Source: Owenia fusiformis
Taxonomy: Eukaryota; Annelida; Polychaeta; Sabellida; Oweniidae
Assembly: GCA_903813345.2 (NCBI GenBank)
Contig: CAIIXF020000010.1
Span: 22,331,181 to 22,395,180, forward strand
Reading direction: 5' to 3'
DNA: 64,000 bases
In this document: positions 8,020 through 57,442 of the stretch, one piece after another
Numbering within the stretch: position 1 is the stretch's first letter
How the letters are laid out: each line of letters opens with the position of its first letter
The notes under the pieces: generated by a model
What the model was told of the DNA's origin: nothing
Seen by the model: the letters and a program-made list of their open reading frames with translations, nothing else
The model's database searches: none
Program-made: the position numbers and the translations under genes

Positions 8020-9935
8020 TTCAAGTGATGTAACAAACGAATTTATATCTGATCCACCTTCTGGGATGTGCAACATAAGACCCATAAGTGATAATCGAAG
8101 TTCCTTCCTAAGTGATAATCGCTTGATAATTCCTCCCTTTACTGCAAAAGGTGTGACCAGCAGGCATCTTTCTAGCGCTATAAGATGTGCAACATAAGTG
8201 ATAGTCGAAGTTCATCCCTTTACCGCGAAAAGGTGTGACCAACGGGCATCTTTCTAGCGCTATAAGATGTGCAACATAAGTGATAATCGAAGTTCATCCC
8301 TTCACCGCCAAAAGGTGTGACCAACAGGCATCTTTCTAGCGCTATACGATGTGCAACATTAGTGATAATCGCTTGATAATGCCTCCCTTTACTGCAAAAT
8401 GTGTGATCAACAGGTATTTTTCTAGCGCTATAGGATGTACAACATAAGTGATGATCGAAGTTCCTCCCTTTACGGCAAACTGTGTTATCAACAGGTATTT
8501 TTCTAGCGCTATAGGATGTGCAACATAAGTGATGATCGAAGTTCCTCCCTTTACGGCAAAAGGTGTGATCAACAGACTTCTTTATAGCGCTATGTGCAAC
8601 ACGAGTGATAATCAAAGTTCTTCCCTTTAAAGCCAAAAGGTGTGAGCAGCAGGCATCTTTCTAGCACTATAGGATGTGCAACATAAGTGATAATCGAAGT
8701 TATTCCCTTTAAAGCCAAAAGGTGTGAGCAGCAGGCATCTTTCTAGCACTATAGGATGTGCAACATAAGTAATAATCGAAGTTCTTCCCTTTAAAGCCAA
8801 AAGGTGTGAGCAGCAGGCATCTTTCTAGCACTATAGAATGTGCAACATAAGTGATAATCGAAGTTCTTCCCTTTAAAGCCAAAAGGTGTGAGCAGCAGGC
8901 ATCTTTCTAGCACTATAGGATGTGCAACATAAGTGATAATCGAAGTTCTTCCCTTTAAAGCCAAAAGGTGTGAGCAGCAGGCATCTTTCTGGCACTATAG
9001 GATGTGCAACATAAGTGATAATCGAAGTTCTTCCCTTTAAAGCCAAAAGGTGTGAGCAGCAGGCATCTTTCTAGCACTATAGAATGTGCAACATAAGTGA
9101 TAATCGAAGTTCTTCCCTTTAAAGCCAAAAGGTGTGAGCAGCAGGCATCTTTCTAGCACTATAGGATGTGCAACATAAGTGATAATCGAAGTTCTTCCCT
9201 TTAAAGCCAAAAGGTGTGAGCAGCAGGCATCTTTCTGGCACTATAGGATGTGCAACATAAGTGATAATCGAAGTTCTTCCCTTTAAAGCCAAAAGGTGTG
9301 AGCAGCAGGCATCTTTCTATCACTATAGGATGTGCAACATAAGTGATAATCGAAGTTCTTCCCTTTAAAGCCAAAAGGTGTGAGCAGCAGGCATCTTTCT
9401 AGCGCTATAGGATGTGCAACATAAGTGATAATCGAAGGTCCTTCCTTTACCGCCAAAAGGTGTGAGCATGCAGCAGGCATCTTTCTAGCGCTATAAGATG
9501 TGCAACATAAGTGATAATCGAAGTTCCTTCCTTTACCGCCAAAAGGTGTGAGCAGCAGGCATCTTTCTAGCACTATAGGATGTGCAACATAAGTGATAAT
9601 CGAAGTTCTTCCCTTTAAAGCCAAAAGGTGTGAGCAGCAGGCATCTTTCTAGCACTATAGGATGTGCAACATAAGTGATAATCGAAGTTCTTCCCTTTAA
9701 AGCCAAAAGGTGTGAGCAGCAGGCATCTTTCTAGCGCTATAGGATGTGCAACATAAGTGATAATCGAAGGTCCTTCCTTTACCGCCAAAAGGTGTGAGCA
9801 TGCAGCAGGCATCTTTCTAGCGCTATAAGATGTGCAACATAAGTGATAATCGAAGTTCCTTCCTTTACCGCCAAAAGGTGTGAGCAGCAGGCATCTTTCT
9901 AGCGCTATAGGATGTGCAACATAAGTGATAATTGA
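8020..9935. repeat. 82-bp satellite array with higher-order structure
   Basis: About 23 copies of an 82-bp unit containing GATGTGCAACATAAGTGATA and AAAGGTGTGAGCAGCAGGCA (starts at 8641, 8723 and 8805 give the period). The left part is more diverged, while 8640-9900 is nearly homogeneous. Variant positions recur every three units: the CTATAGAATG variant near 8830 and 9076, and CTGGCACTA near 8988 and 9234, are both about 246 bp apart. A four-unit block of 332 bp starting near 9401 recurs near 9733, including an 86-bp unit. The minus-strand open frames here are repeat artefacts. Confidence 0.9.
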
Positions 9936-10105
9936 ATTGGCCAACATGAATGATAACTTAGTTTAAAGGAGTAGTATCGATATGGTGAACTTTTTGAACA
10001 TGCGTTTTTCTTAAACCAGTCATCAAAATATTCTGAAAATTTTACACATCGTCAATTTAATGGTCATCTTTTGGATGGTAACATTATAATTTCAAATTAT
10101 ATACA

Positions 10106-10199: not shown

Positions 10200-10205
10200 G
10201 TTGTT
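10200..10205. other. Left target-site duplication of the Polinton
   Basis: GTTGTT immediately precedes the element terminus AGTAGTATTATCC. The same six bases follow the right terminus at 19390-19395. Six-base duplications are the rule for Polintons/Mavericks. Confidence 0.9.
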
Positions 10206-10245
10206 AGTAGTATTATCCGTAGGAATGAGGCCTGGGAAAGTGGGA

Positions 10246-10375
10246 CCAATGGGACCAATGGGACCAATCTGAGCCAATCTGGACCAATCAGGGCCAATCT
10301 GAGCCAATCAGGGTCAATCTGGGACATTCTGGGACAATCTGACGCAATCAGGGGCACTCAGGGACAACCAGGGAG
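10246..10375 (+). repeat. CCAAT array / 10-bp periodic repeat in the TIR
   Basis: Seven CCAAT pentamers start at 10246, 10255, 10264, 10274, 10284, 10294 and 10304, with spacings of 9-10 bp, followed by degenerate copies (CTGGGACAAT, CAGGGACAAC). The mirror copy in the right TIR ends at 19349. The period is close to one helical turn. CCAAT is the core NF-Y site, but array binding by the element's own integrase is equally possible; neither can be decided from sequence. Confidence 0.8.
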
Positions 10376-10436
10376 CGATACGGGAGCCGGCGACCAATAG
10401 GCTGTCTCGAACCGATAACGTTTACTTCATTTAAAG

Positions 10437-10588
10437 ATAACAAATTCCACCATCTGAAGATAACAAATTCCACCATCTGAAGATAACAAATTCCACCATC
10501 TGAAGATAACAAATTCCACCATCTGAAGATAACAAATTCCACCATCTGAAGATAACAAATTCCACCATCTGAAGATAACAAATTTCAC
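10437..10588 (+). repeat. Seven 23-bp tandem repeats in the left TIR
   Basis: Seven head-to-tail copies of a 23-bp unit containing GATAACAAATTCCACCATCT; the innermost copy is slightly diverged. The right TIR has the same seven copies in inverse order (about 19007-19158). Equal copy number in both TIRs argues for recent homogenisation or a recent insertion. Confidence 0.9.
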
Positions 10589-11149
10589 CATTTGTGATTT
10601 TTTCAACATTTTAAAGATAAGGCGATATACTATATAATGGCTGAGTTTTAGACAGCTCTGCCTAATCACGTCATCTGCAGCAGAAAAACAGGTAAGTCGA
10701 AAATATATTTCAAAACTTCAGGTGCTATTCTAGGCCTGCATTAAGGGATATAAAAATTGGATGGGAAGCTGAGGAGCTAAGACATCCGCCCTACTGAGCT
10801 ATGTAGAGCCATTGATGAATACGACTGTTAACCACCCGCTTATATACTGATTAGGAGCTACTTGGGCTGGAGAATATGTCACTGATTAAGGAGACTGAAA
10901 TGCGATCGAGTCTCGAAACACGAGTCCAAAAATGTTTTTAACCCAAAATCAGAAGGACCGAAAATTAAAATCCGTTCGTCCGTTTAACATGGCAAATCCC
11001 ATTGGCGCTGGGAAACGTCAGAAATTAGGGGGACCAAAAATATGTTACGGTCGAATTAGGGTACTCAAAAGCTATTTCAGACCAGCATTTAGAGATCGAA
11101 AAGCATGTGTGTGAGAAGTCTCCACGTCTATGGCATACAGATGAACTTA

Positions 11150-11182
11150 GTTGTTTAAAGGAGCCGAGCTCCTTTAAACAAC
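11150..11182. other. Perfect 14-bp-stem hairpin in the left TIR
   Basis: GTTGTTTAAAGGAG and its reverse complement flank a five-base loop (CCGAG). The right TIR carries the same hairpin at 18413-18445. Note that the stem begins GTTGTT, identical to the target duplication; this is probably chance. Confidence 0.85.
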
Positions 11183-11267
11183 TCGCGTACCGTACAGAAT
11201 CCGAGCTGTATACTAGAGTATGCCCCCAGTGAGCAGCAGCATGATCGGGGAGAAACAAAATGACACA

Positions 11268-12430
11268 CTTTATTTAGCCAGTTTTAAAGATAGCAAATTC
11301 CTCCATTTTAAGATAACATTTTTCATCATTAGAGATAAGATTTTCCAACATTTTGAGATAAAAAGGATCCAAAGTCCTCGGTTTTTCAACATTTTATAGA
11401 TAAGGCGATATACTATATTATGGGTTGACAGGTCTAACTCGCCTAATCACGTCATCTGCAACAGAAAAACAGTTAAGTCGATTCTCAAATGCAATTTCAG
11501 ACTTGTTTTTACTAATCTAGATCCAGAAACATTCTTTATACAGTCAATGAGGTCTTTATTCGTATCTTTAGTCCCGATCGTTTATCCTTCAAGCTGACAC
11601 ATCTGTTGGCACGCTACAAGATAGCAGTAAACAGTCATTATAATCCGATAGATTTGGTAGTTTACTTTGTAAAGATGCTTCTTCTAGGTATGCCTCTGCT
11701 AGGTTTAGTCTTTATAGTCCCATAACCATGTACCTGCAAAGAAGATCAGATACAATTTATTTTGAGTAGGAATAAACACGTCTTGCCTCTATTTCGCATG
11801 GAACATAAACTATGGTCTCTAAATATCAGCCTAAAAATATTTTTCACCTACATTAGGAGACTTGAATGCAAACGATTCTCGAAATACCAGCCTCAAAATA
11901 GTTTATTACCTAGGAGACCACAAAAATAAAATCCATACGTTTAACATGGGAAATCCCATTAAAACTCAAAAATATCAGAAATTAGAGGACCAAAACTATT
12001 TTTTCACCTAAATTAGGAGACTGGAATGCAAACGAGTCATGAAATACCAGCCTAAAAATATTCTTGACCGATATTTAGGAGACCGAAATTTAAAATCCGT
12101 ACGTCTGTATAACCTGGGGAATCCCATTGAAATTCAGAAATATCAGAAATTAGAGGACCAAAAATATTTTTTCACCTAAATTAGGAGACTGGAATGCAAA
12201 TGAGTCTCGAAATAATAGCCTCAAAAATATTTTTAAACTGAATTAGGTGGCCCAAAATTAAAACCCATGTGTCTGTTGAACAAAGGAATCCCCATTGAAA
12301 CTCGAAAACATCTGAAATTAGAGGACCAAAGATATGTCACACTTTAATTAGAATTCTCAAAGCTTATTCAGACCTGTATTTCGATCAAGAAACATTCTAA
12401 GTTGAGTTGACAGTGCCATGTTCGTCTGCT
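11268..12430 (+). repeat. Subterminal region built from diverged TIR-derived repeats
   Basis: At 11300-11480 lies a diverged direct copy of TIR positions about 10590-10700, recognisable by AAGGCGATATACTATAT and CCTAATCACGTCATCTGC. At about 11800-12340 there are three tandem units of about 160-170 bp (GGAGACT... starts near 11856, 12016 and 12184). They resemble TIR positions about 10885-11070, with shared words such as AATCCCATT and CAGAAATTAG. The stretch at 12345-12410 resembles TIR 11050-11100. There is no coding region. Confidence 0.8.
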
Positions 12431-13299
12431 CTGTGAGATCCCTTCAGTCAGCAGCGAGACTTCTGAAACATATAATTTAGCTCGTGTTTTCCGCATTTCT
12501 GCAAAAATGTACTGATCTGATTTTCAAGAGTATGTTCCCACAATTCAAAAAACAACTCTCACCTCCTTGAATGTGTTCCCATAGTAGTCAACTGCCATAA
12601 CTCCCACTTCTTGAAAATCCATAGCCATTATATGTGTACATTGTCATGATATATAATTCATAAAATGGTTTCTTTTAGTCACTTCTCAAGAGTGTAAACG
12701 CTTTTAGCAACAGTTTGCCTTGGACTTTGATATCATATACTCATACTAGCTATATATCGACGGTATATTCTCGACTGTATATCAGTTGACCCTCTTGAGA
12801 TAACACATACCCGTGCTCACTTTTAACCGCGCTTATAGAATATGAATAATTAAAGTGGTAATAAAGTTTCAAAAAGCAGGTTAGGGTTTCCTTTTAGCTT
12901 TAAATTGTAATTGTCAAAGGTCTTTGAAACTTTAAGGTCCAAAACAATCAAATTGAAACATTATTTCTCGAGTTACTGCGTTATGAAATAAATCAAAGTA
13001 AGTAAAATTGTAGCAGTCCCAACTCGTCTCAAGTCTTTATGACCCCTTTAATTGTAATGTTCTCTGAAATCATTTTCTTATATACAGGGTGACACAACAT
13101 CATCTAACGGATTAGTAACATACAGGGTGAGTTATAAAATGGTAACCAAAACAATTATCTGAGAATATTCCTATGAAGAAAACAGTAACATTGATTTAAG
13201 TAATATAGTGAACGTAAAAACTATTGGGGGGGGGGGGACTTTAGTAGCATAAAACGAGACACTTCGTCCAAATAGCACTCATTTACATTGAACCATAGG
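12431..13299 (+). other. Non-coding leader before the Polinton gene block
   Basis: No open frame of note. It contains two mariner-like TACAGGGTGA words near 13084 and 13122 and a run of 13 G at about 13226-13238. Promoter elements for the first gene may lie here, but I see no clear TATA box at a fitting distance. Confidence 0.5.
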
Positions 13300-13632
13300 A
13301 TGGATACGGACCATTATTTACACGTGGACAGTAGGGATTCCCGAGAATATTTCCCATTTAACACCAGTGAGCATTTTACAGTGAAATTACCTAGTTATTT
13401 AAACCTAGAAGGATATTGGAAAATAGGACTCTTGCAAATAGGACTTCCTGCATTGGTAGACCAACCAAGTGTAGCCTACCTGGATGTTTTCTGCGATTTG
13501 ATGGATGAAAGCGTGGTCAATGGAAGAAAACAGTCCATCTTAAGGAGGATAGAGGCAGCAGAGGGTTGGCGATACTTCAATCCAGTGCTCTACACCTCCG
13601 TGAAATTCAATCAATTTGATAGAACTATATAA
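13300..13632 (+). CDS. Polinton putative minor capsid (penton-like) protein
   Basis: A 110-residue product, first gene of the block. Its opening (DHYLHVDSRDSREYFPFNT, then FTVKLP and a 'W-K-I-G-L-x-x-I' stretch) matches the N-terminal pattern of a protein family commonly encoded beside F54H12.2-type capsid genes. In that pattern a Y-P-x-N-T segment is followed by F-x-V-K-L-P and a GxWxVGLxEI-like strand. In Polintons this position is taken by the minor capsid/penton protein that forms the particle's vertices. The ATG at 13300 is used; an upstream in-frame TTG is not needed. The family assignment is from memory of the motif pattern, so moderate confidence. Confidence 0.6.
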   Translation: MDTDHYLHVDSRDSREYFPFNTSEHFTVKLPSYLNLEGYWKIGLLQIGLPALVDQPSVAYLDVFCDLMDESVVNGRKQSILRRIEAAEGWRYFNPVLYTSVKFNQFDRTI

Positions 13633-13633
13633 G
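13626..13633 (+). promoter_or_regulatory. Candidate TATA box overlapping the minor capsid stop codon
   Basis: TATATAAG followed by a purine run (AGGAAGTGA) lies about 80 bp before the next ATG (13714). The TAA stop of the upstream gene is inside it. The same arrangement occurs at 16920 and 17622. Confidence 0.4.
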
Positions 13634-13713
13634 AGGAAGTGACAACCAATCTGTCTCATTTAACAACCAGAGACTGACTTGTACAATACACTTAAAAAGA
13701 GTGATTTAGAAGA

Positions 13714-14031
13714 ATGCCTAAGCTAGTACCTTATATAGATAACACCAACAAGTGGCAGCAACTGTTGAAATCTGATAGAGAGGTGGGAATCATCACTCAA
13801 ATTGGACGTGGAAAACACAGAAATAGGTGGATTTCTGTTGACATCATTAAGAAACCAGTCACTGTTATATCTCCAACTGAGGCTGTAGTGGAAAGAGCAC
13901 AGGCGGAAATAGAACGTCAAAGATCGATATATAAGGGAAAACGTCAGGCTAGTGATCCAGTAGTTAACAAAGCACCCAAGAGTAAACGCACGAGGACAAC
14001 TGAGGAGTATAAAATATGGCATTCAAAATAG
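13714..14031 (+). CDS. Small basic protein of the Polinton, function unknown
   Basis: A 105-residue product overlapping the start of the major capsid gene by 16 bp. It has a central charged, probably helical stretch (residues about 55-75, rich in E/R/Q) and a basic tail, with a nuclear-localisation-like KAPKSKRTR at about 86-94. I do not recognise a family with certainty. Its place before the major capsid gene and its basic charge would fit a core, scaffold or DNA-binding virion protein, but that is inference. Confidence 0.65.
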   Translation: MPKLVPYIDNTNKWQQLLKSDREVGIITQIGRGKHRNRWISVDIIKKPVTVISPTEAVVERAQAEIERQRSIYKGKRQASDPVVNKAPKSKRTRTTEEYKIWHSK

Positions 14032-15359
14032 ATGGCTCTAGTGGAGACATTTTGGATGGTAGCCTCAACTTGTTCGAGACACCCAGCACTCAAAGCAGTG
14101 TGACAACAGTCAACTTCGTGGAAATTCGCCCTGTGAACCCCTTGTCACGTGGAACGCCAGTGGAGTTTGTTATCCCAAACAACTCTTCTCAGTTCATCAA
14201 TCTGAAGGACGTCAAGCTCTTTTTAAAATTGAAGATCACCAAGAGTGATGGATCGAATTTGGATATATCTCCCTCTCTATCAAACGTAGCACCAGTAACT
14301 GGATGGATGCATGCCTTATGGCAGCGAGTAGAAGTCATGCTGCAGCACCAAGTGGTTAGCTCCTCCAGCAATTATTACCCCTATAAGGCTCATCTAAACA
14401 GACTTCTGACACAGTCACCAGCGGCTCATAACTCAAGATTGCAAAACGAATTTTTCTACAAGGACGAAGGGACTATTCAGAATTCAGCTTTCATAGATGA
14501 TAGCAATACCATATCTGGGAACAACACAGGGTTAAAGAGGAGAGCTACACTTGTGATGGTATCTAGAGAGGTGGAGCTGCAAGGTCCTATTTTACACGAC
14601 CTGTTTCAAATGGATCGCTATATCTTAAATGGCGTACCGATCAATGTGAAACTGACACCCAGCGAAGATGCCTTCAACCTCATTTCGAATGAGCCAGATG
14701 CAGACTATAGAGTTCAGTTGCTTGATGCTCATCTCCTTGTTCCTATGATAACTGTGTCTCCTGGTATTCTCACATCGTATAACATGGAATTGAAAGAACG
14801 CAACGCTGTATACCCTTATGAACATAATCAGATACGTTCATGGATAGTTCCCCAGGGGCTGACTTCTTATAGCATACACGATTGCTTCCAAGGGAATGTA
14901 CCATCCAGGCTGTTGATTTTTTTCACCAAATCGAAGGCTACCAGTGGGGCTTACAACCTAAACCCATTCAATTATCATCACTTCAAAGTAAACTTTTTAG
15001 AAGTCGCCATAGACGGTACCAGTGTCCCGGGACGAGCTCTGAGACCAGTGTTTGGGGATGCTCCCTATGAAAATCAATACGCCAACGAATATGATCGTTT
15101 ATTCTCAGACCTCTACGATGATGAGGGTTTGATAATTGACAAGATGTCATTCCCTTTTGGTTACGCCATTTTCAAGTACAATATCCAAGCTCAAGATAAA
15201 ACCAGCGAAACATTCTCTTTTCCTTTAGTCAAGAAAGGCAGTGTCAAAGTGAGTGCGCAGTTTACTGAACCATTGGCGGAACCAATAAACTTGATGATGC
15301 TGGCAACCTTCCCCGATAAATTTCAAATAGACTTATCGAGAAATATAATTCTGGAGTGA
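14016..15359 (+). CDS. Major capsid protein, F54H12.2-like (double jelly-roll type)
   Basis: A 447-residue product that matches the 'uncharacterized protein F54H12.2-like' family. That family is widespread in invertebrates and associated with Polinton/Maverick capsids. Diagnostic stretches are NLFETPSTQSS near residue 18, a V-E-F-V-I-P-N...F-I-N-L segment at 49-63, LWQRVEVML at 101-109, and the SSSSNYYPYKAHL block at 115-127 followed by an FFYKDEG element. The predicted role is the hexon-like capsomer of an icosahedral particle. It is followed after two bases by the protease ATG, so the two may share a transcript. The length is normal for the family. Confidence 0.88.
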   Translation: MAFKIDGSSGDILDGSLNLFETPSTQSSVTTVNFVEIRPVNPLSRGTPVEFVIPNNSSQFINLKDVKLFLKLKITKSDGSNLDISPSLSNVAPVTGWMHALWQRVEVMLQHQVVSSSSNYYPYKAHLNRLLTQSPAAHNSRLQNEFFYKDEGTIQNSAFIDDSNTISGNNTGLKRRATLVMVSREVELQGPILHDLFQMDRYILNGVPINVKLTPSEDAFNLISNEPDADYRVQLLDAHLLVPMITVSPGILTSYNMELKERNAVYPYEHNQIRSWIVPQGLTSYSIHDCFQGNVPSRLLIFFTKSKATSGAYNLNPFNYHHFKVNFLEVAIDGTSVPGRALRPVFGDAPYENQYANEYDRLFSDLYDDEGLIIDKMSFPFGYAIFKYNIQAQDKTSETFSFPLVKKGSVKVSAQFTEPLAEPINLMMLATFPDKFQIDLSRNIILE

Positions 15360-15361
15360 CC

Positions 15362-15805
15362 ATGGACTCTGAGCAGATAAGTCTCATATTGGATACGCAT
15401 CCTGACACTGAGTCATCGTTCAAGGGAGTCTATGCTAAGGATCATATGCTGAATCGTCTAAAAGAGGGAAAGTGTTACGTCCTGAACACCAAGGAGAGTT
15501 GGCACCCTGGAGAACATTGGACCTGTTATTACGCTGGACATAAACAACTGGAGTTTTTTTATCCGTTGGGCAATGCGCCAGATGTCTATGGATTCACCGC
15601 GTACACGAATGAACAGCAGTATAATGCCATACGCGTGCAAAATCTAAACAGTTCCAGCTGTGGACACTTTTGCACTATGTTCCTGTTGTTGAGATGCCGA
15701 GGTTATTCCATGGACTATATCGTGAATAATGTACTGTATAAAAATGAACAGGAGGTCGTTGAAACCATTCAATATCTATTATCACTATATGAAATAAATA
15801 AATAA
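15362..15805 (+). CDS. Adenovirus-type cysteine protease (adenain-like)
   Basis: A 147-residue product starting at the ATG at 15362 (CCATGG context). It carries the catalytic pattern of adenain-family proteases: His-Trp in GEHWTCYY (His52), an acidic residue before FFYPLG (Glu64), a conserved Gln (Q93) ahead of the active-site Cys100 in SSSCGHFC. Such proteases mature capsid proteins in adenoviruses and Polintons. The stop lies in an AAATAAATAAATAAA run that may supply a poly(A) signal. The gene sits between the major capsid and integrase genes on the same strand. Confidence 0.87.
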   Translation: MDSEQISLILDTHPDTESSFKGVYAKDHMLNRLKEGKCYVLNTKESWHPGEHWTCYYAGHKQLEFFYPLGNAPDVYGFTAYTNEQQYNAIRVQNLNSSSCGHFCTMFLLLRCRGYSMDYIVNNVLYKNEQEVVETIQYLLSLYEINK

Positions 15806-15843
15806 AATGAGTAGCCTACATTGTGTTTTATTCATTCGCTATC

Positions 15844-16926
15844 ATGACGTTGAGCAAGCTGCAGTCTAAGCTGCTTAAAACAATATATTTCGATCCCAGT
15901 AGACCGGGGTCTTACAGCGGTTTTAAACAACTCTGGCGAGAGGTTAAGGGTCGGGGAATCAAGCAGGCTGATGTCAGGGACTGGTTGAGTCAACAAGAAA
16001 CCTACAGTCTATACAGGGGAGTCAAGACTAGATTTAAACGTAGAAAACTAGTGGTGAGACATATGCTAGAACAAGCTGATACAGATTTAGCCATGATGGA
16101 TAAATATGCGGAGGAAAATGACAGTTTCAAATATCTTCTCATCATGATTGACAGTCTAAGCAGGTACCTGTGGGTGCAGCCAATCAAAAGCAAAAATAGC
16201 GAAGATATGATCGAGGCGTTCAAGAAGATATTTGCCACTGACAAACCTAGTAGGTTGCGCAGTGATAAAGGAATTGAGTATCGATCCAAAAAGATTCAAG
16301 CCTATTTCAAAAGTGTAGGGGTGTGGCACTTCCTGACGCAAGGGACCGTGAAGAGTCACCTTGCGGAGAGAGTTATTCGTTCATTGAAGCATAAAATTTA
16401 CCGATATATGTTCCATAACGCCACGAATCGTTATATCGATGAACTCCAATCTATAGTGGATAGCTACAATCACTCATTCCATAGAAGCATCAAAATGGCT
16501 CCTGCGGATGTTGATGATGATAACGAACTGCAGGTTTTCGAGACCCTTTTCATGAGTAAGCCTAAAAGAGATGAAGCTGTCAATTATCGCTTCGACATTG
16601 GTGATTTGGTGAGACTGGCTTTTACAAAGGGAATTTTCGATCGCGGCTATCAGCAGAAATGGTCCACGGAATACTTTAGAATCAAGAGTAGGAATGCTAC
16701 CGATCCTCCCACATATTACCTGGAAGATCTACAAGGAGAAATAATCAAGGGACTATTCTACGCCGATGAAATGCAGAAAATTTCTGAGGAACCAGCCCAG
16801 CATAGAATCGAATCTGTGTTAAAGTATAGAAAGAGAGGGAGGCAAAAGGAAGCCCTAGTCCACTGGCAGGGTTGGCCCTCCAAGTTTGACACGTGGATTC
16901 CAGCGAAGGATGTACGAGATATATAA
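15844..16926 (+). CDS. Retroviral-type DDE integrase with C-terminal chromodomain
   Basis: A 360-residue product from the ATG at 15844. The catalytic triad is visible: Asp81 (in ADTDLAMMD), Asp141 (RLRSDKGIEY) and Glu175 (HLAERVIRSLKHK). The FKYLLIMIDSLSRYLWVQPI strand is typical of rve-type cores. The C terminus (about residues 320-360, HRIESVL...ALVHWQGWPSKFDTWIP) is a chromodomain, which in chromointegrases reads histone methylation and steers insertion. It would join the AGT ends to target DNA, making the 6-bp duplication. A YKRY-like SH3-type segment (FDIGDLVRLA) lies between the two domains. Confidence 0.9.
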   Translation: MTLSKLQSKLLKTIYFDPSRPGSYSGFKQLWREVKGRGIKQADVRDWLSQQETYSLYRGVKTRFKRRKLVVRHMLEQADTDLAMMDKYAEENDSFKYLLIMIDSLSRYLWVQPIKSKNSEDMIEAFKKIFATDKPSRLRSDKGIEYRSKKIQAYFKSVGVWHFLTQGTVKSHLAERVIRSLKHKIYRYMFHNATNRYIDELQSIVDSYNHSFHRSIKMAPADVDDDNELQVFETLFMSKPKRDEAVNYRFDIGDLVRLAFTKGIFDRGYQQKWSTEYFRIKSRNATDPPTYYLEDLQGEIIKGLFYADEMQKISEEPAQHRIESVLKYRKRGRQKEALVHWQGWPSKFDTWIPAKDVRDI

Positions 16927-16927
16927 A
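16920..16927 (+). promoter_or_regulatory. Candidate TATA box at the integrase stop codon
   Basis: TATATAAA lies 37-44 bp before the ATPase ATG (16964) and contains the TAA stop of the integrase gene. It is followed by the purine-rich GAAGGAG. The distance suits an RNA polymerase II start just before the ATG. Confidence 0.45.
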
Positions 16928-16963
16928 TGAAGGAGCCTTCCCATTTTCATAACATTACCAATC

Positions 16964-17626
16964 ATGGACTGGTGGCAGACGGAGAGCCTCATTAAACTTC
17001 GAAATGGCACGAGCTGCTCGATCATTGGTAGCAGTAATAGCGGGAAGACTCATTTCGTTTATAAACTGTTGAAAAACCTATCTGGCATGTACGAACCTCC
17101 CGGACCACAAGCTGTTCTGTATTGCTACGGCATTCATCAACCGCTTTTTGATCAAATGGAAATGGAGTTGAAAAATGTTCAATTGCACCAGGGCCTACCT
17201 AGTCGGGAAATGATAGATGAGCTGACTAAAGATAGGAGGAGTACGGTGATAGTTCTGGACGACCTGCTTCATCAGGTAGCTAACAACAAGGAGATGGAAC
17301 TCATGTTTACTCAAGGCTGTCACCATAGATGCTTGAATGTGCTGTTTATAAGTCAACAGGCCTTTTACAAGGGTACTCGAACCATAGCGCTCAATACGCA
17401 GTATTTAGTCTTGTTTAAAGCTTTGAGGGACAAGACTCAGATCATGACGTTAGCCAGACAGCTCAGTCCTACAAAGTGGAGACAGTTGATGGAGTCATAC
17501 CACGATGCAACCTCTGCTCCATACGGCTACCTATTTTTGGATCTCTTTCCTCATAGTGATGACGTCACCAGAGTCAGAACTCGCATTTTTCCCAATCAGG
17601 ACACGATTATATATCCGCAGCTATAA
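16964..17626 (+). CDS. A32/FtsK-HerA-type genome-packaging ATPase
   Basis: A 220-residue product. Walker A is GSSNSGKT (residues 22-29) and Walker B is VIVLDDLL (95-102), with the sensor-like strand VLFISQQAF downstream. The size and motif spacing fit the packaging ATPases of Polintons and related double jelly-roll viruses, which pump DNA into the capsid. A good Kozak context (ATCATGG) supports the start. Confidence 0.87.
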   Translation: MDWWQTESLIKLRNGTSCSIIGSSNSGKTHFVYKLLKNLSGMYEPPGPQAVLYCYGIHQPLFDQMEMELKNVQLHQGLPSREMIDELTKDRRSTVIVLDDLLHQVANNKEMELMFTQGCHHRCLNVLFISQQAFYKGTRTIALNTQYLVLFKALRDKTQIMTLARQLSPTKWRQLMESYHDATSAPYGYLFLDLFPHSDDVTRVRTRIFPNQDTIIYPQL

Positions 17627-17630
17627 ATAG
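17622..17630 (+). promoter_or_regulatory. Candidate TATA box at the ATPase stop codon
   Basis: TATAAATAG followed by AGAGAGAG lies 32-40 bp before the ATG at 17662, and the ATPase TAA stop is embedded in it. This is the third such stop/TATA overlap in the element. Confidence 0.5.
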
Positions 17631-17661
17631 AGAGAGAGTTCAGGATAGGATTCAGTCGAAC

Positions 17662-17991
17662 ATGAGCGGGAGAAGTGTATTGATTGCTTACGAACGATAT
17701 CAACGTTTACTAGATCAGTCATCACCAAAACAGGAAGAACCACGCATCACTGAAAAGCAGAACGGAGCTGGGCCTATTAACGTAAATCCTAGAACAAACA
17801 CTCCAGCTGGTGAAAACATATCTGATAGGGATCAGGAGAGAGGAGTTCCTGCCATTGAAAAGGGAGCTAGAAAAATCAACCTTGTTCCTCCCGGTATTCC
17901 AGCTCATAAAATACGCAAAAGAGCAGCCGAAAAATTGATAGGTACAACTGAAGCAAAGAAAAACGCTATTTCTTCGTGGGTCTCCTTGTGA
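17662..17991 (+). CDS. Small Polinton protein starting MSGRSVLIAYERYQRLLD, function unknown
   Basis: A 109-residue product. The first 18 residues and the later VPPGIP-AHKIRKRAAEKLIG block (about 75-94) resemble small proteins I recall beside F54H12.2-type capsid genes. The middle is low in hydrophobic residues and probably disordered. No catalytic motif is visible. The basic C-terminal helix may bind nucleic acid or capsid; that is inference. Confidence 0.6.
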   Translation: MSGRSVLIAYERYQRLLDQSSPKQEEPRITEKQNGAGPINVNPRTNTPAGENISDRDQERGVPAIEKGARKINLVPPGIPAHKIRKRAAEKLIGTTEAKKNAISSWVSL

Positions 17992-18076
17992 CATGAATGC
18001 AATTGGAAAGCAAGTTCCATTTTTGACATATCTAGCTGAAGCTACTACATAACAGAGACGCGTGCTGCTGAAAACC

Positions 18077-18301
18077 ATGACATTGGCTCAAGTTAAAGTC
18101 ATCTCTGAAGTGATACTCAACATCCTTCTACAAAACGTGACTCTGTCCCAAGAGGAGCGAAGAAAACTCCTCCCATATAGAGAAACGTTGGAATTCATGG
18201 CAAACAGAGCTGTCAGCTTGAGGGATAAAAGACGGAGGGCGAAGAGACGAATTAAAGCTGTATTGACTGTACTTAGAATGTTTCTGGCTAAAATAAAATG
18301 A
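18077..18301 (+). CDS. Small very basic Polinton protein, function unknown
   Basis: A 74-residue product from the ATG at 18077 (MTLAQVKVIS). It is predicted all-helical, with a hydrophobic first half and a strongly basic second half (RDKRRRAKRRIKAV). This 'helix plus Arg/Lys tail' pattern resembles small proteins found next to other F54H12.2-type genes. It ends 26 bp before the right TIR, and an AATAAA overlaps its stop (18293-18298). It may be a core or DNA-condensing protein. Confidence 0.6.
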   Translation: MTLAQVKVISEVILNILLQNVTLSQEERRKLLPYRETLEFMANRAVSLRDKRRRAKRRIKAVLTVLRMFLAKIK

Positions 18302-18327
18302 ACATATACATCAATGCCTACGATTTT

Positions 18328-19389
18328 TGTGTCATTTTGTTTCTCCCCGATCATGCTGCTGCTCACTGGGGGCATACTCTAGTATACAGCTCGGATTCTG
18401 TACGGTACGCGAGTTGTTTAAAGGAGCTCGGCTCCTTTAAACAACTAAGTTCATCTGTATGCCATAGACGTGGAGACTTCTCACACACATGCTTTTCGAT
18501 CTCTAAATGCTGGTCTGAAATAGCTTTTGAGTACCCTAATTCGACCGTAACATATTTTTGGTCCCCCTAATTTCTGACGTTTCCCAGCGCCAATGGGATT
18601 TGCCATGTTAAACGGACGAACGGATTTTAATTTTCGGTCCTTCTGATTTTGGGTTAAAAACATTTTTGGACTCGTGTTTCGAGACTCGATCGCATTTCAG
18701 TCTCCTTAATCAGTGACATATTCTCCAGCCCAAGTAGCTCCTAATCAGTATATAAGCGGGTGGTTAACAGTCGTATTCATCAATGGCTCTACATAGCTCA
18801 GTAGGGCGGATGTCTTAGCTCCTCAGCTTCCCATCCAATTTTTATATCCCTTAATGCAGGCCTAGAATAGCACCTGAAGTTTTGAAATATATTTTCGACT
18901 TACCTGTTTTTCTGCTGCAGATGACGTGATTAGGCAGAGCTGTCTAAAACTCAGCCATTATATAGTATATCGCCTTATCTTTAAAATGTTGAAAAAATCA
19001 CAAATGGTGAAATTTGTTATCTTCAGATGGTGGAATTTGTTATCTTCAGATGGTGGAATTTGTTATCTTCAGATGGTGGAATTTGTTATCTTCAGATGGT
19101 GGAATTTGTTATCTTCAGATGGTGGAATTTGTTATCTTCAGATGGTGGAATTTGTTATCTTTAAATGAAGTAAACGTTATCGGTTCGAGACAGCCTATTG
19201 GTCGCCGGCTCCCGTATCGCTCCCTGGTTGTCCCTGAGTGCCCCTGATTGCGTCAGATTGTCCCAGAATGTCCCAGATTGACCCTGATTGGCTCAGATTG
19301 GCCCTGATTGGTCCAGATTGGCTCAGATTGGTCCCATTGGTCCCATTGGTCCCACTTTCCCAGGCCTCATTCCTACGGATAATACTACT
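18328..19389 (-). repeat. Right terminal inverted repeat of the Polinton (1062 bp)
   Basis: Reverse complement of 10206-11267, with the same 33-bp hairpin (18413-18445), seven 23-bp repeats (about 19007-19158) and CCAAT array (19287-19349). It ends GGATAATACTACT and is followed by GTTGTT. Short open frames in it mirror those of the left TIR and are not genes. Confidence 0.92.
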
Positions 19390-19395
19390 GTTGTT
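19390..19395. other. Right target-site duplication of the Polinton
   Basis: GTTGTT directly after the right terminus, matching 10200-10205. Confidence 0.9.
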
Positions 19396-52339: not shown

Positions 52340-54174
52340 CATAGCCGTAGGCAGCGGGGGTTCGGTGGGTTCGAACGAACCCCCGGTCAGGATTTCCCAA
52401 AATATCATTTTGCTGAAAGATGCATATAACCAGAAACATTAAATAACTGTGTGCTATTTGAAAACTACATATATGAGCAGTAAATGAATCGATGTTTGTT
52501 TTGGTGAACACGAGAGCCTTATTTTGTTAAAAACATGTCATAGTGAAGTTACACTTCCCTCAAAACGGTTGGCAACCTTAGGCACGGGATGAGATTTTGG
52601 GAAGACCCCAGAGCATGAGATTTTACATTTAGAAATAACAATAATTTCGCACAATTAACTTAAAAGCTGCTTCTTCTCGGACAAAATAACCCATCTTGGG
52701 CAATGGCTAAATCAGTCCTTTGTAGGAATTTTGTTTTAAGCCAGTTCTGGTCCAATACGAAGTTATTGAAAACAATGCTAAGACGTCCCATACTCCGAAT
52801 GATTTTTACAACATTGCCGAATAAATATCTGGAATTGTCGTAATACTGATGAAACACATGTTCTTTCAAATGTGTACATCTCTGTTTTGTTTTATTTCAA
52901 TTAAAATTTAAAATATTTCTTGGGACGTCCCTTGGGCTGGCAAGTCCCCGAAACCAATTGCGTTAAATAATTAAAAACCTTGTGAAATGAATATTTAAAA
53001 GCGTATAGCATTTATAAACACAAGCATTTGTTCAATTTATTCATTCTTTCATTTGTTAAGTATTTATTAACCAATCTCTTTTCCAAAGAAAAATCAATTA
53101 TTGCAAAAAATGATTTGGTTTTTTTTTCGTTCAGATACACTCCACTCATCTAAGAGATGGTATAGAATTCAAATTGTTATCGTTCCAGTTTAACTGCTCT
53201 CCATTTTCATGTTAATGTCATGATATGTTTAGCGAAAAAAATTACATAATAAAAAAATCATATGGTATTAATCTGAACTTAACAAATTATGTTTTATATT
53301 CGAACAGTCGCTTGTATTTATATATGATTTATATCCACCAAATTGCAGTTGATCCGCTCCGGGGGACTTACCACTGACATCCGGGGACGTCCAAAGAAAT
53401 ATTTTTAACTTTTTAAAACAAAGCAAAACCGAGACCCACTTATTTGAATAATAGATAATATTTTCATCAGTAATACGACTATCCCGGACAGTTTAAAAAG
53501 CCTTAGTGCAAACGTTGTGAAAAGTTATCGTAGAAGAACGATCTTTCGGAGTATAGGGTGTTTGTATTTGTTCCGAACTGGACTCCAACAAAATTCCTGA
53601 AAAATTATGATAAGCCATTGCATGAGATGATTTATTTTGTCCTAGATGAAGTAGCTTAAGTTAAAGAATAAATTGTGCGAAATAGTTGATATTCCTTGGA
53701 AACAAATCATGCTCCAGAGTCTTCCAGAAATCAGACGAAATAATGGTGGATTCGGGGCAAATCAGATTTCAGGATATGTATTCAGTAAAAGATTCACCGA
53801 AATATATTTTGATGCAGAAAATTAATTATAAGTTGTCTGACTTTTTTGCACATTGCCTGTTTATTTTTCTTTGTGAACATTAAAGTTACAAAGCTACAAG
53901 GCCATTTTTGAAAATCATTTTTACGTCCTGTGTTATTTCAATGGGAGAGGTTTCTTGATAAAGCCTATGACTTTCAGACTTTGCTTAAAAATAAGACTTC
54001 AAACTTAAAGATGCTTTTAATACATAATCCAATGGGTTAGTTAGGATTGTTAAACTTTTGTAGGGGTTGTAATTGTACAAATTGCATTATTTGAGTAACC
54101 CAAATGAAGGGGGGGGGATTTGTGAATAACATAAAAATAGAACCCCCGGTCACCAAATCCTGGCTACCCCACTG
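52340..54174. mobile_element. 1.8-kb foldback transposon inserted in the 43-bp satellite
   Basis: It starts CATAGCCGTAGGCAGCGGGG and ends CTGGCTACCCCACTG, flanked by GTAGT on both sides (52335-52339 and 54175-54179). The two halves are diverged inverted copies of each other. For example, 52645-52705 pairs with 53610-53680, and GGGACGTCCCTTGG near 52921 pairs with GACATCCGGGGACGTCC near 53380. It is therefore a long palindrome. No transposase is recognised. The terminal motif GTAGCCAGG is shared with 57443-57743. Confidence 0.8.
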
Positions 54175-55565
54175 GTAGTACATGTACTAGTGAAAGTAGA
54201 ACTAGTGTATAGCGATAGTAGTACATGTACTAGTGATAATAGTACTAGAGTATAGCGATAGTAGTACATGTACTAGTGATAGTAGTACTAGTGTATGGCG
54301 ATAGTAGTACATGTACTTGTGATAGTAGTACTAGTGTATAGCGATAGTAGTACATGTACTAGTGATAGTAGTACTAGTGTATAGCGATAGTAGTACATGT
54401 ACTAGTGAAAGTAGTACTAGTGTATAGCGATAGTAGTACATGTACTAGTGATAGTAGTACTAGTGTATAGCGATAGTAGTACATGTACTAGTGAAAGTAG
54501 TACTAGTGTATGGCGATAGTAGTACATGTACTAGTTATAGTAGTAGTCTAGTGTATAGCGATAGTAGTACATGTACTAGTGATAATAGTACTAGTGTATA
54601 GCGATAGTAGTACATGTACTAGTGATAGTAGTACTAGTGTATGGCGATAGTAGTACATGTACTTGTGATAGTAGTACTAGTGTATAGCGATAGTAGTACA
54701 TGTACTAGTGATAGCAGTACTAGTGTATAGCGATAGTAGTACATGTACTATTGAAAGTAGTACTAGTGTATAGCGATAATAGTACATGTACTAGTGATAG
54801 TAGTACTAGTGTATAGCGATAGTAGTACATGTACTAGTGATAGTAGTACTAGTGTATGGCGATAGTAGTACATGTACTAGTTATAGTAGTAGTCTAGTGT
54901 ATAGCGATAGTAGTACATGTACTAGTGATAATAGTACTAGTGTAAAGCGATAGTAGTACATGTACTAGTGATAGTAGTACTAGTGTATGGCGATAGTAGT
55001 ACATGTACTAGTGATAGTAGTACTAGATATAGTGATAGTAGTACATGTACTAGTGATAGTAGTACTAGTGTATGGCGATAGTATTACATGTACTAGTGAT
55101 AGTAGTGCTAGTGTATAGCGATAGTAGTACATGTACCAGTGATAGTAGTACTAGTGTATAGCGATAGTAGTACATGTACTAGTGATAATAGTACTAGAGT
55201 GTAGCGATAGTAGTACATGTACTTGTGATAGTAGTACTAGAGTATAGCGAAAGTAGTACATGTACTAGTGATAGTATTACTAGAGTATAGCGATAGTAGT
55301 ACATGTACTAGTGATAGTATTACTAGAGTATAGCGATAGTAGTACGTACATGTACTAGTGATAGTATTACTAGAGTATAACGATAGTAGTACATGTACTT
55401 GTGATAGTAGTACTAGAGTATAGCGATAGTAGTATATGTACTAGTGATAGTAGTACAAGAGTATAGCGAAAGTAGTACATATATAGCGATAGTAGTGCAT
55501 GTTCTTGTGATAGTAGTACAAGAGTATAGCGATAGTATTACATGTACTTGTGATAGTAGTACAAG
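54175..55565. repeat. 43-bp satellite, right part
   Basis: About 32 copies of the same unit. It is homogeneous to about 55020; after that unit length and sequence become irregular (extra ACGTAC, ATATAGTG variants), as expected at an array edge. Confidence 0.9.
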
Positions 55566-57442
55566 CAATACACCGTTGTGTACTTGTATATGAAATATAT
55601 TACCATTGATTTCCTGATTTGAGTGTGCTCTTTCTATGATTTCAAATATTTCTTCCGATCAGGAAAAACAAAACAAACGCTTTTCAAAATAACAACATTT
55701 CATTTATAAGGAATTGATCAATCAGAATCCACTAAAATACGGAAGAATATTTTGGGGGAAATAGCGTATTTTCGAGACTAATTAACTAAATATTTCTGTA
55801 GAAATGTTGCTTCTAATTTAATCATAATTTCCCTACAAAAGCACAAAGTGTAACATATAAGACTGCATTCGTGTATGATTCAGATCGATTATTTTTGCTA
55901 ATACGACTCCCCAACCCTCCAGTTTGGACGGAACTAAAGAGTTTAAGGAACCTAATGAAAAACTGGAAATGTTATTTCGTATTGGGAAAGTAATTAATTG
56001 CAAAATGAATGAAAAATGGAAATATTCTTCGCATCATTCTACTTTGACATCCTCGGATCAACTTCAATTAACCCCTAAAGCTTGGTGAATTTTTCCTTGA
56101 CACTTTATTTCATGCTTTGACATACAAAATCACCAGATTTCGCTACTTCGTCCATAAAGCCAAATCATTTGGATTCACTCCTTGTTGCGGTTGTCTATTA
56201 AGTTGGCTATTTACATGATATAGGCTAATTTGTCAGCATTCTTTATAGAACAATTATTTAGTTTCTTTACACTGGTAATTTGTAGATTAATAGCAAGCTA
56301 GGTCTTCGTTTCATTAAAGTCTCCTCAATTTGATTCCTTTTAGTTGCAACCCCTCTGAATTAAGGAACATTGTTGTCCACAATTTAGAGTAATTCCTTTA
56401 TTTACTTTCTCTTTTATTATTTCATTGATGTTGAAGTCTTCTTGGTTGTTTTAAGTGATTTAATTTGGGTGATCAAAGTGAAAACAATAGATAATAGACA
56501 CATCATCGACGAATTATAGAATTGGAACGGTTCCCTTTTATTTAGAGAAAATACTGTTAAACTGTATGTCCAATGCACTAAACACGGACTGTATTGTTCC
56601 GACATCTTGTTGCAAAGACGCGTTGGCATTGTAGCACATTGTGACCAACTTGAAATAAAGGGATCCGATGAAGGGCTCACATAATTTATGCATGTATTCT
56701 AACTATCAAAAGGTTTATGTAGATCTGTACATTGGTTTTAGTATAAACATCGATAGAGCACAGTTCGAACTCCCACGTGAAGTAGCTGCATTGTTTTTGG
56801 AAGTATCCCATTTAATGAGACTCAGGAAAATATTCCAGATGTTCTCCATTAGTCTGCCTACGACACATATGCATTTGTCTCTTCTACATTGACTAAGTAG
56901 CCACATCAACTATTCTCTTTTCTTCCGAAGGATCTCTCAGCTCGATGCCACCCACTCTCTCTAGCTTTTACATAGACTCCCCTCCGGCTTTTACATAGTC
57001 TCCCTATCTCCATACCTAAGTACGATCCCGCTCCCCAGTCCCTTTCATCCCTTTCTCCCATCTTATTTTCTATCATATCTCCTTCCCTACTATTTCTTAA
57101 ATGCATCAAGGATATGAAAAAAATCATAAAATGGTATTCGTGATAATTCTGTTTTAAGGATGTTTCTCTTTGTGATATCTATGTTGTTTGAGTATGGTAC
57201 TATTTGATTGTATGGCATGTTTGTTTGACATATCGTAAGTAATATTTACAAACATCTGCAGAATTTATTTCTGGCGTGGTTCCTACCAATGCAAATTATT
57301 CAATTACATTGGTTGTAAACATGAAAAATCAATGCATGAATATAAAGACTCTGGTGTCTTTGGTTATTCTTGTTGGTCCTATCTTGGAAAATACACCGTT
57401 CCTAGCGCTCATAATAGGGTGCCAAATAGGTCCCTTAGTCTC
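55566..57442. other. Intergenic, no gene seen
   Basis: AT-rich with short random open frames; nothing supported. Confidence 0.5.

Follow-up and report, generated by a model that had tools for sequence, protein, structure and literature searches.

A nine-kilobase Polinton family of the annelid Owenia fusiformis that carries capsid and integrase genes and has no recognisable DNA polymerase

Introduction

Polintons, or Mavericks, are self-synthesising elements, usually 15–20 kb in length, that are copied via a protein-primed polymerase B (PolB), and the adintoviruses, a named animal family, combine a PolB with adenovirus-like capsid genes. Here we analyse an element at positions 10206 to 19389 of a 64,000-nucleotide stretch of the Owenia fusiformis genome (assembly GCA_903813345.2, contig CAIIXF020000010.1, positions 22,331,181 to 22,395,180 of the forward strand; hereafter the window), which proved to be one of nine gene-bearing copies of a family in which no PolB could be recognised. 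With Polintons/Mavericks (the animal polintoviruses and adintoviruses) this family shares terminal inverted repeats (TIRs), a 6-bp target site duplication (TSD), a chromodomain integrase of retroviral type, a double-jelly-roll major capsid protein (MCP), a minor capsid protein, a protease and an ATPase. Unlike them it is without a PolB of its own in all nine copies and measures about 9 kb where uninterrupted, and for want of PolB it falls outside the definition of an adintovirus.

Modular gene loss is known from capsid-less Polintons. The sections consulted of PMC4028283 describe nine of these, which are also without protease and ATPase; the 9-kb family, in contrast, has lost the opposite module. 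In the same sections elements shorter than 10 kb are discarded as incomplete, so that elements of the size considered here would be uncounted there. The consulted part of PMC10120064 reports many Polinton-like and virophage-like integrations in protists without a detectable polymerase, and its authors suspect undetected replication genes. Those elements resemble the present ones in being integrated, capsid-bearing and without a recognised polymerase, and differ in that their hosts are protists, whereas in the worm PolB-bearing relatives reveal the missing part. A literature search pairing "Owenia fusiformis" with "Polinton" returned no papers, and we found no description of a capsid-bearing, polymerase-free animal Polinton family in the literature covered, which included the accessible parts of PMC4028283, PMC10120064, PMC11071308 and PMC6431247 and from which subscription papers were mostly absent.

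Results

Nine copies without a PolB match

The element in the window is complete at either end; its TIR arms of 1062 nt each are 100% complementary, and the flanking GTTGTT is duplicated (Table 1). These ends, repeats and 6-bp duplication had been drawn in a preliminary description of the window, made from its sequence alone, and all were borne out. Between the TIRs lie eight plus-strand open reading frames (ORFs): minor and major capsid proteins, protease, integrase, ATPase and three small ORFs. The same description saw neither a PolB nor a long frame elsewhere inside the ends, and our searches agree with it. Two PolB types gave zero matches to the window by tblastn at an E limit of 1e-2, a third and closest type gave chance-level matches only (best E 0.07), and the gap from the left TIR to the minor capsid gene has no stop-to-stop frame of more than 69 amino acids (aa) wholly inside it. 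In relatives, PolB is positioned beyond the ATPase gene, outside this left gap.

Searching the 498-Mb genome with the TIR, together with retrieved regions, gave nine gene-bearing copies with one common gene order, two each on C2, C9 and C10 and one each on C3, C8 and C12. A perfect 6-bp TSD, different in each case, is present in all eight copies with both ends located (the window copy included); in the ninth copy (C3) the end motif was not found. With the three PolB types as queries there was no PolB match in any of the nine, so the element is best classed as derived from self-synthesising Polintons and not as one of them. The integrase frame is intact in 9/9 copies.

Three copies are longer than the uninterrupted size of about 9 kb (C12, 17.4 kb; C3, 15.4 kb; C2a, 14.8 kb), their surplus DNA lying inside a TIR arm in C2a and within the left non-coding part in C12 and C3. 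The idea that these are PolB-bearing versions of the element was rejected, as the inserted DNA matches no PolB query. Their ORFs were listed for regions L014, L016 and L018, a listing that stops short of the ends of two inserts, which run into L015 and L017; no ORF in L014 or L016 exceeds 144 aa, and L018 has one extra frame of 221 aa without a Pfam match. As to the comparison proposed in the preliminary description, short and polymerase-free against long and PolB-bearing, all nine gene-bearing copies, the long ones among them, are without a PolB match. Nine loci, eight of them with separate TSDs, and constrained genes (below) point to an amplified lineage, neither a single deletion nor an assembly collapse.

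Within a copy the two TIR arms are 97.3–100% identical (seven copies measured, C2a and C3 being left out). Between copies, in contrast, the TIRs of five others are 88.5–91.8% identical to those of the window copy, despite genes that are about 98–100% identical. By this pattern both ends are renewed together, whether during the copying of a linear form or through gene conversion afterwards.

Four further places (L020, L021, L022 and L023) hold pieces of the TIR, and Polinton genes are absent from them. L020 (C3:34053000-34062900) has two outward-facing inverted arms (97%) on either side of about 7 kb that contains no long ORFs, and L022 (C11:17119500-17123000), like L021, is a TIR-only or TIR-bearing structure.

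Selection on the genes

The nine copies form two sub-lineages, A with seven copies and B with two (C9b and C3), which differ at synonymous sites by a dS of 0.13–0.21 in the four main genes (ATPase, integrase, MCP and protease). Ratios of nonsynonymous to synonymous substitution (dN/dS) between A and B were obtained by the Nei-Gojobori method as means over pairs of copies, and lie between 0.08 and 0.26 for these four genes (Table 1). Broken frames were excluded (MCP of C10b, C8 and C9b; 105-aa ORF of C10b and C8; 74-aa ORF of C3), and the 105-aa value includes the C2a copy, which lacks a true start. The capsid genes are thus under selection, as in a satellite virus, to judge by the MCP (0.15) and protease (0.26) means over pairs that share copies. 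Since both sub-lineages are without PolB, the simplest reading is that the constraint on capsid and integration genes postdates the loss.

Relatives in the same genome

PolB was sought genome-wide with the Pfam family and with PolBs of the C9, L035 and C4 types. A capsid search gave 92 matches, which manual merging reduced to 80 places (three are fragments), and an ATPase search was followed for the best 150 of 217 candidates. Polintons abound in the worm genome, with these 80 capsid places, at least 150 ATPase matches and many families. A PolB match, relics included, lies within 20 kb of 23 of the 80 capsid places, a count that may be too low, given how divergent and interrupted PolB is. By capsid family (F names coined in this analysis) the proportion is 0/9 for the 9-kb family itself, 1/2 for F75, 1/3 for F59, 3/4 for F58, 3/3 for F47, 4/5 for F40, 2/9 for F41, 0/10 for F33 and 0/11 for full-length F35. 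The preliminary description would have been undermined if all relatives carried a polymerase and this element were a unique deletion; many relatives do have one nearby, and the absence is common to nine copies.

The nearest family, F75, has members at C4:25.10 Mb and C9:19.51 Mb with an MCP identity of 74–75% and, among the ATPase matches listed, an ATPase identity of 95%. Its C4 member (capsid 74%, ATPase 95%) has a PolB frame of 1148 aa in convergent orientation; the part of it that was read matches the PolBs of L035 and L036 by tblastn (E 3e-13 and 7e-13), and Pfam gives no polymerase call for it. For the C9 member there is no PolB match within 20 kb, its own sequence being unread. Because the nearest relative and members of the deeper branches F58, F47 and F40 carry PolB, its loss from the 9-kb family is derived. 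On C11 lies a broken element whose ends match the ends of copy C9b with 87% identity across 206 bp, and which contains a fragment that matches the C4 PolB with 65% identity across 68 aa.

Intact PolB frames of 1485 and 1475 aa are present in the genome. The longer belongs to a full-size Polinton of 18.7 kb (C9:25120136-25138822; TIRs of 366 bp, TSD GGAGTG), which shares with the 9-kb family homologous capsid, protease, ATPase and integrase genes, termini that open with AGTAGT and a 6-bp TSD, and differs in its PolB, its shorter TIRs, an integrase placed elsewhere and an MCP only 33% identical. As a direct parent it was rejected, given that MCP identity and the different gene order.

In F59 the capsid is 58–60% identical to ours and the ATPase 53–54% for two members (among the matches listed). 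Unlike this, the 95% ATPase identity of F75 is out of proportion to its capsid identity, which suggests from sequence comparison that F75 and the 9-kb family exchanged modules by recombination.

Genes and features of the window copy

The MCP was identified from a predicted structure, built with 26 relatives (mean predicted local distance difference test score, pLDDT, 87.4), which matches double-jelly-roll capsids, that of PBCV-1 with an E of 9e-16 and those of Sputnik and mavirus among them. The integrase has Pfam matches to the integrase core (rve, 2.1e-9) and to the chromodomain (3.3e-7). For the protease and the ATPase the Pfam matches are weak and under the curated cut-offs (adenain, E 0.0087; A32 type, E 0.0012), and similarity to relatives is clear: the protease is 31% and 46% identical to the protease positions of two relatives, the 31% being to the 18.7-kb C9 Polinton, and the ATPase is 44% identical to its counterpart there. 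The minor capsid protein, assigned by position and similarity, is 31% identical to the product at the minor-capsid position of that same Polinton, with further relatives in P0046 and P0047; its frame is 138 aa in all eight other copies and is broken at 110 aa in the window copy. P0046 is an Owenia fusiformis protein according to its source, and on comparison by eye its C-terminal part is encoded at locus L044 on C1. An ORF resembling the 105-aa one (36%) precedes the capsid gene in another family. The eight plus-strand genes of the preliminary description thus stand as ORFs, less the minor-capsid frame, which is broken, and the 109-aa ORF, which is unconstrained.

A PHROGs search of the window proteins gave matches to the integrase and weak ones to the ATPase, and nothing further; IMG/VR with the capsid, a phage collection with the integrase and the PDB by sequence with the capsid gave nothing informative. 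Outside the element, 82-bp tandem repeats occupy window positions 9500–9947, directly beyond its left end, and GC-skew reaches 0.33 at 53000–57000, composition being even elsewhere.

Table 1. Features of the element in the window, with dN/dS as the mean between sub-lineages A and B.
Feature	Position	Strand	Remarks
Left TSD copy, GTTGTT	10200..10205		6-bp target site duplication
Left TIR, 1062 bp	10206..11267	+	10-bp and 23-bp tandem units inside
Non-coding stretch	11268..13299		168-bp repeats at about 11840–12335, related to inner TIR; without polymerase
Minor capsid protein	13300..13632	+	110 aa, frame broken near 3' end; putative, by position and similarity
105-aa basic protein	13714..14031	+	No assigned function; dN/dS 0.46
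Major capsid protein, double jelly roll, 447 aa	14016..15359	+	Predicted structure; dN/dS 0.15 (5 A–B pairs)
Adenain-type maturation protease, 147 aa	15362..15805	+	Sub-threshold Pfam and similarity; dN/dS 0.26 (14 pairs)
Retroviral-type integrase with chromodomain, 360 aa	15844..16926	+	Pfam; dN/dS 0.10
Packaging ATPase (A32-like), 220 aa	16964..17626	+	Sub-threshold Pfam and similarity; dN/dS 0.08
109-aa ORF	17662..17991	+	Shows no constraint; dN/dS 1.2
74-aa ORF	18077..18301	+	Kept between copies; dN/dS 0.01 (7 pairs, one B copy)
Right TIR	18328..19389	-	Same sequence as left arm
Right TSD copy, GTTGTT	19390..19395		6-bp target site duplication

Discussion

We consider it somewhat probable (roughly 0.55) that the 9-kb family is a polymerase-less, non-autonomous Polinton lineage that is copied in trans by the PolB of a relative, integrates itself and uses its own or shared shells. 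Its ancestor would have been a Polinton whose PolB, like the C4 relative's, was convergent; after PolB was lost, the element would have multiplied as a capsid-bearing non-autonomous lineage that kept capsid, protease, packaging ATPase and integrase. The protein-primed polymerase of a relative in the same genome would copy the linear DNA, starting at the TIR ends; the DNA would be packaged, perhaps by the lineage itself, and the element's own integrase would then reinsert it with a 6-bp duplication. Copying by a sibling PolB is favoured because PolB-bearing Polintons are co-resident, AGTAGT ends are shared with the C9 Polinton, and similar ends occur, in the C11 relic, on an element that carried PolB. 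We infer from this a dependence on a helper polymerase like that of a satellite virus (virophage-like). Of the two natures offered in the preliminary description, satellite-like fits nine copies without a PolB match, separate TSDs in eight of them and constrained genes, and a compact lineage does not, since the loss is derived. Its suggestion that the element can still build a particle of its own is open to doubt for the window copy, whose minor-capsid frame is broken.

Several observations weigh against this reading. Six of the nine copies have one or more broken or truncated ORFs. The pairs behind the dN/dS means are not independent, and that for the MCP comes from intact frames with a single B copy. 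If the two sub-lineages lost PolB separately, some of the constraint could go back to an ancestor that still had PolB. Finally, the searches turned up no intact PolB element whose TIRs are recognisably the same, and neither F75 place was listed by the TIR search (the ends of the C4 member being unread).

Two other explanations are unlikely, to a similar degree. The family might move without any polymerase of its kind, by integrase cut-and-paste or by host polymerase copying, as a chromodomain-integrase DNA transposon with incidental capsid genes. The integrase, intact throughout, would suit this, and the TSDs show integration; yet plain transposition fails to explain the constraint on MCP, protease and ATPase, and the paired renewal of the ends also speaks against it. 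Alternatively, the copies might be defective debris of one PolB deletion, spread in a helper-driven burst and now decaying, with no maintained lineage behind them. The broken ORFs noted above and the interruption of three copies by insertions agree with such decay; against it, both sub-lineages are without PolB at a dS of about 0.13–0.21, and their main genes have remained constrained. Debris of this kind would in any case still have required a helper in trans, and so overlaps with the polymerase-less lineage that we prefer.

It is improbable that one of the small ORFs (105, 109 and 74 aa) is a hidden replication protein that primes or recruits a host polymerase: these ORFs have no assigned function and the 74-aa one is strongly conserved, but all three are too small for a polymerase, and a 105-aa-like ORF also stands before the capsid gene in another family. 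That an assembly collapse deleted PolB at about 11.3–13.3 kb, which the preliminary description had named as grounds for refutation, is very improbable, for in spite of the repeats in that stretch the gene order and left stretch are found again in the eight other copies, which lie on six chromosomes, and the PolB of relatives sits elsewhere, beyond the ATPase gene.

F33, F35 and most of F41 may be additional polymerase-free families, with the caution that divergent PolBs can escape detection, and on these sequence searches such lineages may have arisen several times in Owenia fusiformis. It is possible, at less than even odds, that the worm harbours a satellite system made up wholly of Polintons, in which selected polymerase-free lineages with capsid and integrase genes of their own parasitise the protein-primed polymerases of their siblings and swap modules with them.

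Size filters such as the 10-kb limit given in the consulted sections of PMC4028283 can conceal lineages of this kind. With the 9-kb family and its relatives in one genome, helper dependence between sibling Polintons becomes testable. A lineage that has given up its polymerase while capsid and integrase remain under selection would indirectly support the idea that Polinton particles matter in animals.

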